NCBI GenBank assembly: GCA_018066285.1
Contig: JAGHRS010000019.1
Coordinates: forward strand, 1-64,000
Source: Candidatus Treponema caballi
GTDB taxonomy: Bacteria; Spirochaetota; Spirochaetia; Treponematales; Treponemataceae
DNA: 64,000 nt
Direction of reading: 5' to 3'
Numbering within the stretch: the stretch's first letter is position 1; every line of letters starts with the position of its first letter. The position numbers and the translations under genes were made by a program. The notes below the pieces were generated by a model. The model ran no database searches and was not told the DNA's origin. It was given only the letters and a program-made list of their open reading frames with translations. Of the stretch, positions 28,966 to 48,367 are shown in pieces.

Positions 28966-29037
28966 GGTTCCTTCGAATATCGGCTAGTTCGTGGCCCTCT
29001 CAAGGCTAAAAGATGGGTTCGATTCCCATAGGAACCG
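28966..29037 (+). tRNA. tRNA-Glu (CTC)
   Basis: Acceptor GGTTCCT pairs with AGGAACC. D-stem GAAT/GTTC holds loop ATCGGCTA. Anticodon stem TGGCC/GGCTA has loop CTCTCAA, anticodon CTC (reads GAG). CCA not encoded. It depends on read-through of the hairpin after tRNA-Gln or on an unseen promoter. Confidence 0.85.
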
Positions 29038-29045
29038 TTTAACGA

Positions 29046-29070: not shown

Positions 29071-29130
29071 ATCATTTTAAGCTTCCCAGACATTTATCTA
29101 CAGACATTGCTTTTTGAACTGAATAAAGCT

Positions 29131-29150
29131 GTTCCTATGGGAATCGACCC
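29131..29150. repeat. Inverted copy of the tRNA-Glu 3' end
   Basis: GTTCCTATGGGAATCGA (29131-29147) is the exact reverse complement of the T-arm/acceptor end of tRNA-Glu. It is followed by CCCCC, four bases and TGAGCGC, a pattern shared with the block after tRNA-Arg. It looks like a truncated member of the tRNA-linked repeat family. Confidence 0.7.
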
Positions 29151-29166
29151 CCGCATTGAGCGCTGC

Positions 29167-45608: not shown

Positions 45609-45681
45609 CGGGATGTAGCGCAGCTGGTAGCGCGTCTGGTTTGGGACCAGAATGTCGCAGGTTCAAATCCTGTCATCCCGA
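45609..45681 (+). tRNA. tRNA-Pro (TGG)
   Basis: Acceptor CGGGATG pairs with CATCCCG; anticodon stem TCTGG/CCAGA with loop TTTGGGA, anticodon TGG. T-arm contains GGTTCAAATCC. Reads CCN proline codons. CCA is not encoded. Confidence 0.93.
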
Positions 45682-45683
45682 CA

Positions 45684-45719
45684 AGGACCTTTTCGTGAAA
45701 GCGGAAAGGTCTTTTTTTT
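45684..45719 (+). terminator. Terminator of tRNA-Pro
   Basis: GACCTTT pairs with AAAGGTC around CGTGAAAGCGG-type loop, followed by T8. Confidence 0.75.
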
Positions 45720-45746: not shown

Positions 45747-45829
45747 CAGGATTTGAACCGAGCGAAAACGCGAGCAGTGCGGAGCGTTTTCACGACGGCG
45801 GGTCCGGAGGACCAAATCCTGTCATCCCG
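45747..45829. repeat. tRNA-linked GC-rich hairpin element after tRNA-Pro
   Basis: The left end CAGGATTTGAACC (45747-45759) is the reverse complement of the tRNA-Pro T-arm; the right end CAAATCCTGTCATCCCG (45813-45829) is a direct copy of the tRNA 3' end. Outer arms CAGGATTTG/CAAATCCTG pair. Inside are two hairpins: GAAAACGC/GCGTTTTC and GGTCC/GGACC. The loop of the first holds GAGCAGTGCGGA, a motif shared with other GC-rich blocks here. Confidence 0.8.
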
Positions 45830-45830
45830 G

Positions 45831-46249
45831 AGGTGAGGCTTTTAAAATGAAGAAGACACGAAGCCTTTCCGCTTTATCAAAATCTGTCTTTCTCCCTGTC
45901 TTTCTTACGCGTTCGCGCGGAGAAACGTGTCTTTCCGCTTTACTTTCCGCAAGGGATTGGAGCACGCACGGCTGACTTTGGCAGACGTGCTCCACCGGAG
46001 CACGCTATGAGCGGGCGAGGAGGATGAGCGTGAGCGAAGTGCGGAAAGCCCGGTGACGGCGCGGAGCGGCGTCATGCGGCCAAAAATGCATGAAAAAATC
46101 TTTTCTTTCTTTTTTCCCTATAACCGTAAATTCTTTAATTACATAAAAATTGTTGTCAGATATAATGAGTACGATTTAATGTGGTGGGGAATACGCAGGT
46201 AAAAAGTCCAAAAAAAAAGAGCACAAAACTTTTTTTATGAGGATGTGAT
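45831..46249. repeat. Gene-free region with GC-rich repeat island
   Basis: No gene is supported. It holds three copies of CTTTCCGC (about 45865, 45931, 45944; the first two extend to CTTTCCGCTTTA), an inverted pair AGACACG/CGTGTCT, a hairpin GGAGCACG/CGTGCTCC (45959-45993) with a second GGAGCACG at 45997, and GAGCGAAGTGCGGAAAGC (46032-46049), related to the cores of the tRNA-linked elements. The final ~160 bp are AT-rich, with a TATAAT box near 46160 as probable promoter of the HD-GYP gene. Confidence 0.6.
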
Positions 46250-47744: not shown

Positions 47745-47818
47745 GGGATCATAGCTCATCTGGATAGAGCAACTGCCTTCTAAGCAGTAGGTAGGGGGTT
47801 CGAGTCCCTCTGGTCCCA
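47745..47818 (+). tRNA. tRNA-Arg (TCT)
   Basis: Acceptor GGGATCA pairs with TGGTCCC; anticodon stem ACTGC/GCAGT, loop CTTCTAA, anticodon TCT (reads AGA). T-arm GGGGGTTCGAGTCCC. No distinct promoter was seen; it may be transcribed by read-through from tRNA-Val. Confidence 0.92.
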
Positions 47819-47822
47819 TTAT

Positions 47823-47854
47823 TCAAAAGCAGTCCAAAGCGGGCTGCTTTTTTT
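47823..47854 (+). terminator. Terminator of tRNA-Arg
   Basis: AAAGCAGTCC pairs with GGGCTGCTTT (one T-G pair) followed by a T-run. An exact copy occurs 200 bp downstream. Confidence 0.85.
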
Positions 47855-47882
47855 TATTACAGGAAAACTTATTATAGCAGAT

Positions 47883-48054
47883 GGACTCGAACCCCCGGCG
47901 TGAGCGCCGAGCAGGTGCGAGGAAGAGCGCGCAGGACGCGCGCGGCAGCGAACAGAGGCGGGGTGGAGGACGCATACAGGAAGTATGCGTCCGTAACCTT
48001 CGAGTCCCTCTGGTCCCATTATTCAAAAGCAGTCCAAAGCGGGCTGCTTTTTTT
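47883..48054. repeat. tRNA-linked GC-rich hairpin element after tRNA-Arg, with duplicated tRNA end and terminator
   Basis: The left end GGACTCGAACCCCC (47883-47896) is the exact reverse complement of the tRNA-Arg T-arm. From 47999 the sequence repeats 47799-47854 exactly (56 bp, offset 200 bp), covering the tRNA 3' end and the whole terminator. GGACTCGAA pairs with TTCGAGTCC as outer stem. Three inner hairpins: GGCG/CGCC, GCGCG/CGCGC, and GGACGCATAC/GTATGCGTCC (10 bp). It holds GAGCAGGTGCGAGG. No gene is supported inside. Confidence 0.85.
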
Positions 48055-48059
48055 ACGTC

Positions 48060-48088
48060 TTGCGCCTTATCCTGCCTTTTCTTATACT
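48060..48088 (+). promoter_or_regulatory. Leaderless promoter of the ACT-domain gene
   Basis: TTGCGC, exactly 17 bp, TATACT, then 6 nt to ATG 48095. It starts directly after the duplicated terminator. Confidence 0.6.
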
Positions 48089-48094
48089 GTAATC

Positions 48095-48367
48095 ATGAAT
48101 AACGCGATAATTACTGTGGTCGGCTCAGACCAGGTCGGCATCATTGCAAAGGTGAGTGCCTTCCTTGCAGAAAAGAAGATAAACATTGCTGACATCAGTC
48201 AGACAATTCTTTCAGGCAACTTTGTCATGATGATGATGGTTGATATGTCAGGTTCTGAACTTGCAATGGATGAACTCAGGTCAAGTCTTGATGAACTTGG
48301 TAATTCCATGGGTGTTGATATAAACGTCATGCACGAACGTGTGTTCAGTGCAATGCATCGTGTCTGA
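48095..48367 (+). CDS. ACT domain-containing protein (UPF0237 type)
   Basis: Codes for 90 residues: a single ACT domain (IITVVGSDQVGIIAKVSAFL, INIADISQTILSGNFVMMMMVD). ATG 48095 is set by the promoter 6 nt upstream; longer in-frame readings run into the repeat element. The family is regularly paired with UPF0210, as here (15 bp apart), and probably senses an amino acid or similar ligand. Confidence 0.88.
   Translation: MNNAIITVVGSDQVGIIAKVSAFLAEKKINIADISQTILSGNFVMMMMVDMSGSELAMDELRSSLDELGNSMGVDINVMHERVFSAMHRV

Follow-up and report, generated by a model that had tools for sequence, protein, structure and literature searches.

The block at positions 45747-45829 of the stretch shown above raises the question of whether one kind of element can stand behind different tRNA genes and carry, at its ends, the T-arm of whichever gene it adjoins. 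The window analysed here is the whole stretch of 64,000 nucleotides from Candidatus Treponema caballi. On balance, and with considerable reservation, we favour the interpretation that the elements represent a widespread class of small, non-coding and non-autonomous residents of tRNA tails, RtT-like in design, whose insertion into the T-loop would not disrupt the tRNA.

The two elements of the window

Both loci share one design: the tRNA gene is followed by a terminator, an inverted T-arm copy, a GC-rich folded core and, lastly, the 3' end of the tRNA repeated in direct orientation. The individual parts were located as follows, R1 being the covariance model of the core that is described below.

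45609..45682 (+): tRNA-Pro(tgg), host gene of the Pro element (ARAGORN and Rfam)
45684..45718 (+): terminator-like hairpin with T-run in the gap between tRNA-Pro and the element (read from the sequence)
45747..45759 (-): inverted T-arm copy of the Pro element, CAGGATTTGAACC (13/13 against 45660-45672, i.e. tRNA-Pro positions 52-64)
45760..45812 (+): short-form folded core of the Pro element with the GCGAGCAGTGCGGAGC loop and the GGTCCGGAGGACC hairpin (R1 match 45748-45814; fold)
45813..45829 (+): direct copy of the Pro element, CAAATCCTGTCATCCCG (17/17 against tRNA-Pro positions 56-72)
47745..47818 (+): tRNA-Arg(tct), host gene of the Arg element (ARAGORN and Rfam)
47825..47854 (+): terminator behind tRNA-Arg, first copy (sequence)
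47878..47896 (-): inverted T-arm copy of the Arg element (18/19, 95%, against tRNA-Arg positions 49-67; the exact stretch is 47883-47896)
47897..47998 (+): full-form folded core of the Arg element (R1 match 47895-47961; fold)
47999..48054 (+): direct copy of the tRNA-Arg 3' end (47999-48018) with a perfect copy of the terminator (56/56 bases)

The exact matches of its inverted copy (13/13) and of its 17-bp direct copy (17/17) confirm that the Pro element is real. The sequence-only reading had placed the inverted copies 66 nt after tRNA-Pro and 65 nt after tRNA-Arg; the latter figure holds and the former has to be corrected, both copies starting at the 65th base after the tRNA. It was right that the two interiors are related, but the GAGC-AGTGCGR motif it proposed is in fact looser, reading GCGAGCAGTGCGGAGC in the Pro and GCCGAGCAGGTGCGAGGA in the Arg element. 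The direct repeat of the tRNA 3' terminus that it described is indeed present; more precisely, this segment supplies or duplicates the terminus, sometimes together with the terminator, and the tRNA gene is therefore intact. Neither window locus holds a tandem array, each consisting of a single unit.

A 155-aa open reading frame with a GTG start (47900-48367, +) begins within the Arg element and extends into a short downstream gene, its first ~65 codons being element sequence. The real start of this gene is probably the ATG at 48096 (MNNAIITVVGSDQVG...), which would make the longer frame an annotation trap.

Furthermore, a second GC-rich block, in which GAGC and AGTGCGGAAAGC motifs occur and T-arm copies are absent, lies 3' of the Pro element (45936-46080). 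Blocks resembling it were detected behind tRNA-Ala(cgc) in locus L023 and behind tRNA-Gly(ccc) in L042; they possibly constitute another repeat family with core motifs in common.

Unit structure and its relation to the adjoining tRNA

The sequence downstream of the tRNA genes was read throughout the 2.9 Mb draft genome (75 contigs, 43 tRNA matches), and an element, whole or remnant, was found behind about 10 of the 43 tRNA genes. The same design follows Pro-tgg, Arg-tct, Ser-gga, Ser-cga, Asn-gtt and Gly-ccc, a larger form of it follows Ala-ggc, and truncated or eroded forms follow Pro-cgg, Met-cat and Glu-ctc. The distance from the tRNA to the start of the inverted copy is usually 60-70 nt. 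The repetition of the design at a second tRNA was thus correctly recognised from the sequence, but it is not limited to two loci and belongs to a large family that reaches other phyla. One of the eroded forms lies in the window:

29126..29161 (-): eroded remnant at tRNA-Glu(ctc), a 36-nt inverted repeat, 81% complementary to 29005-29040

This remnant comprises an inverted copy of the T-arm and the acceptor 3' strand of tRNA-Glu(ctc), followed by GAGCGC, and contains neither a recognisable core nor a direct copy.

Inverted-arm scores ranged from 11 to 19 at several loci of the genome, whereas the best score among the 36 tRNA genes of a genome of the same genus (G004), in which none of them (0/36) is followed by an element, was 8. 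In G004 the SRP RNA is located ~10 nt behind tRNA-Ser(gga), while a unit lies in between in G000, and this patchy presence supports insertion.

The covariance model R1 was derived from ten core sequences with the T-arms left out, and the Pro and Arg elements of the window were outside its training set. It matches both of them (E ~1e-4 and ~1e-6, respectively) as well as 84 of the 145 genomes of the treponemal family, representing 13 of its 20 genera. A matching tRNA was detected directly upstream of 36 of 40 fetched R1 loci by automatic search, and tRNA sequence was recognised at this place by eye in three more (L092, L120, L121). The units measure about 150-220 bp and are frequently arranged in tandem among the inspected loci. 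Gene-carrying units were not noticed in the search of the 145 genomes, no pair of R1 matches being separated by a gene-sized gap.

A unit comprises the part of the tRNA that extends from the T-loop to its 3' end, the terminator, a short spacer, the inverted T-arm and the folded core. In most units, namely those behind tRNA-Pro, -Ser, -Gln, -Met and -Asn, the inverted arm covers positions ~54-65 in tRNA numbering and the direct copy begins at C56. The Thr units and several Ala units have an inverted arm of ~45-58 and a direct copy from 49-50, and in the Glu units and the Arg-tct unit of the window the direct copy begins at 54. Inverted arm and direct copy can together form a closing stem of ~10 pairs, with fewer in some Thr units. 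The core interior contains two or three hairpins with purine-rich GAGC...GCGA joints and a GCGAGCAGTGCGSAGC loop.

The core folds with strong covariation and with a bias towards the tRNA-sense strand. In the core alignment 96.7% of cells pair, and double changes occur at 23 of 25 pairs among 85 distinct sequences, in an alignment that leans towards structure because it was fitted to it; an independent MAFFT alignment of six sequences showed double changes at 16 of 37 pairs. The covariation lies far above that of shuffled sequences and of slid partners. The stems are close to perfect Watson-Crick pairing, and wobbles favour the tRNA-sense strand with 40 G-T against 7 A-C (11 against 2 in an unbiased count). 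Covariation and wobble bias would also fit a functional RNA, an explanation to which we return below.

Each end had been claimed to match its own neighbouring tRNA and not that of the other locus. We therefore scored the inverted arm, its position set by the R1 hit and hence independently of any tRNA, against the adjoining tRNA and against every tRNA of a different isotype in the set. The claim was borne out: among 71 units the mean score was 11.7 for the own tRNA and 5.8 for the others, and the own tRNA was strictly the best in 61. Several of the failures represent interrupted or misplaced arms, including the Pro hit of the window. This result contradicts the possibility, named beforehand as the one that would overturn the claim, that the ends merely reflect the generic T-loop consensus.

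The cores, in turn, are shared across isotypes. The Pro core of G125 is 90% identical over 100 nt to the Met core of G154 and 91% identical over 102 nt to an Ala core of the same genome, with differing ends in both cases, and the Glu core of G151 is 96% identical over 76 nt to an Ala core of G125. As a reservation, in the G125 Ala unit with the Pro-like core only 9 of 12 bases of the inverted arm match the adjoining tRNA. Besides this sharing, the nearest neighbour of a core belonged to the same isotype in another genome in 25 of 84 cases (~11% expected). Some cores thus keep one isotype across genomes, and much of the pattern is therefore plain inheritance. Taken together, units occur behind many isotypes, in tandem in many genomes and not at all in a close relative, with a core common across isotypes.

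Two simple sources of the inverted arm were considered and rejected. A convergent neighbouring tRNA gene was found by ARAGORN at this place in only 2 of ~82 hits, both without an upstream tRNA. Snap-back copying at the terminator hairpin is not claimed as the origin since the arms of the window lie, by eye, ~20 nt off symmetry; in some Clostridia they are, likewise by eye, nearly symmetric around the terminator.

Distribution of the design and comparison with RtT

A search of 84,980 species genomes with a pattern of the design, in which the centres of the T-arm, the inverted copy and the direct copy were fixed and the gaps variable, matched at least 120 stretches. Nearly all of those listed have a tRNA upstream and none at the inverted copy. 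A validation filter requiring that 8 or more of the 11 positions 63-73 match was passed by 94 of the listed stretches, which match there by construction. On the unfiltered side of these 94 loci the identity of the direct copy was 1.00 at position 56, 0.20 at 55 and 0.07 at 54, and 61 of the 94 spacers between tRNA and core contain a T-run. The reversed pattern gave no hits in 36 genomes from the search, compared to 63 listed hits in the forward direction; together with the element-free genome G004 (best score 8) this control excludes an origin by chance.

According to the record titles, the matches listed include Spirochaetes, Clostridia, Coriobacteriia, Cohnella, Elusimicrobia, Omnitrophota and many Patescibacteria. 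The single archaeal matches L137, which stems from a metagenome bin, and L209 call for caution. The loci L141, L145, L153, L175 and L201 and other Oscillospiraceae show a clade-specific core with CAACAGTCCGGTGGACTGTTG-type hairpins and, just 5' of the direct copy, a AAATGCAAA joint. Three candidate-phylum loci (L144, L196 and L202) have the same GCTCGCGTGAG stretch ahead of the inverted arm and form a possible sub-family.

The closest described counterpart is RtT (RF00391), which in the literature searched is named for Gammaproteobacteria alone. In the 178-bp RtT repeats of E. coli K-12 tyrT/tyrV, the tRNA is followed at ~60 nt by an inverted T-arm, and positions 58-76 are present as a direct copy. 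The RF00391 model matched 50 of 274 gammaproteobacterial genomes, and in 25 of 30 fetched loci we found the inverted arm, the tail copy or both at the upstream tRNA (Tyr, Ser, Gln, Thr), the tail copy mostly starting at 58 or 59. RtT and the treponemal elements have, as judged from their sequences, the same anatomy: both lie behind tRNA genes, with an inverted T-arm copy (30-60 nt after the tRNA in RtT), a folded GC-rich core, a copy of the tRNA 3' end and tandem units. They differ in the sequence and the fold of the core, in the start of the direct copy (A58 in RtT, C56 in most treponemal units) and in the terminator, which lies between tRNA and core in Treponema, whereas none is obvious before the core in E. 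coli. The T-loop junction is sharp in either case, at 55|56 in most bacteria examined and at 57|58 in Gammaproteobacteria.

Identity with this Rfam family could be rejected, since RF00391 matched neither the window nor 11 element loci (E up to 0.5) nor any of 58 genomes of the order. Conversely, R1 gave weak hits on the E. coli repeats (E 0.3), and common descent of the two cores is therefore not claimed. No description of the same design outside RtT was found in the literature searched, which consisted largely of openly accessible journal papers and included surveys of structured RNAs. What appears to be new within this literature is that there is an inverted arm, that the ends track the adjoining tRNA, that the T-loop junction is fixed and that the design occurs in several phyla.

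Origin of the elements

In the interpretation favoured here, the core would enter the T-loop of a tRNA gene, and the T-arm pieces at both sides would derive from the target. The unit has a tRNA 3' end on either side, which keeps the tRNA gene whole, so that insertion would be nearly neutral. Further tandem units might then arise by repeated insertion or by unequal recombination.

Three enzyme classes were compared across the family genomes by hand counts from tables of related species, and no mobilising gene was found among them; neither an excised form nor a fresh insertion was seen among the units examined. An integron integrase above the curated cut-off is encoded by 26 of the 84 carriers (~24 expected) and lacking in 58, including the genome studied here, a Y1 transposase by 26 (~21 expected; 58 without) and a reverse transcriptase by 20 (~21 expected). 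This genome has one PF01797 hit and PF00078 hits. None of the three tracks the element and none appears to be a required partner, whereas occasional help would still be compatible with such counts. A host recombinase or an unrecognised trans-acting protein would therefore be the likeliest agent.

We tentatively consider, with more doubt than conviction, a further-reaching version in which the units are pan-bacterial minimal tRNA-tail mobile elements that gain target-complementary arms each time they insert, through an undescribed enzyme or a step guided by nucleic acid, RtT being their sole named branch.

Among the alternatives a functional small RNA survives best, and we regard it as unlikely though by no means negligible. 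It would be transcribed with the tRNA or by read-through from it and processed at the tRNA-like ends, as has been reported for RtT in E. coli, and the arms would match the tRNA because they have to pair with it or with the tail copy. The double changes at 23 of 25 pairs and the wobble bias (40 to 7; unbiased 11 to 2) are consistent with this proposal, as are the annotation of E. coli RttR, which ends at the CCA of the tail copy, and the description of RtT as an RNA released from tRNA transcripts (PMC4986893). However, in Treponema and most other phyla a terminator precedes the core and leaves ~10-25 nt for a promoter, and the presence of the units is patchy, many isotypes hosting one or going without.

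It is rather improbable that the pattern arose without any element-specific enzyme, by replication slippage that multiplies the tRNA 3' end in tandem, with template switching between inverted arm and tRNA (quasi-palindrome correction) keeping the arms matched. The perfect duplication through the terminator at tRNA-Arg, the tandem units and the nearly perfect Watson-Crick stems point in this direction, but a single core at many isotypes and the same sharp T-loop boundary across phyla would be left unexplained.

The units resemble integron attC cassettes in forming a folded single-strand structure, with a closing stem at the recombination point, and arrays at a fixed site. The T-arm and core might thus serve as attC and the tRNA T-loop as attI for an integron integrase. 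The attC box has the consensus GTTRRRY, from which the GTTCRA of the T-loop differs, and no genes were seen in the units. As a general explanation this mechanism is already contradicted by the distribution of the integrase, which 58 of 84 carriers lack and whose 42 genomes include 26 with the element, about the number expected by chance (24); we consider it very improbable.

Equally improbable are remnants of ordinary tRNA-targeting islands, the direct repeat being the att pair of a deleted phage or integrative element: the T-loop junction of the direct tRNA 3'-end copy is typical of islands (PMC9897764, PMC1762012), but the same core and inverted arm recur at ~180-220 bp in dozens of genomes and isotypes, and no intact island with them was seen. 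Islands and prophages integrated by tyrosine recombinases likewise leave the tRNA gene restored and its 3' end duplicated, and the units also show the direct repeat next to an intact tRNA gene; the sublocation in the T-loop is known from tRNA-integrating phages such as Ms6 (PMC1762012). The units differ from them in their small size of ~150-220 bp, with no integrase gene and no room for one, in the inverted T-arm and folded core and in the many isotypes occupied per genome. With REP/BIME elements, which go with a Y1 transposase, the units have in common that they are short, palindromic, non-autonomous and intergenic, but they are tied to tRNA 3' ends, have target-matched arms and occur in 58 of 84 carriers without that transposase.

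Few bacterial genes are as conserved as tRNA genes or serve as often as integration sites. The comparison indicates that the decades-old oddity of E. coli tyrT/RtT is one branch of a class of structured, tRNA-tracking elements that also occurs in Spirochaetes, Clostridia, Coriobacteriia, Patescibacteria, Elusimicrobia, Omnitrophota and others. If the matching of the ends is the work of an enzyme, its target for small DNA would be the T-loop, a nearly universal sequence. The class also accounts for some partial tRNA hits and false open reading frames in annotation.

Two further observations concern related repeats. In locus L041 (G009) the loop motif GCGAGCAGTGCGGAGC occurs twice near position 1500 in an intergenic stretch with different hairpins and without a tRNA nearby, and the motif may accordingly lead a life outside tRNA tails. 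In L104 two tandem units, at ~340-420 and 608-690 nt after tRNA-Met, have their direct tail copy split after position 68 by an identical short GC-rich palindromic insert, which suggests a second small repeat that targets these tails or brings about their decay.
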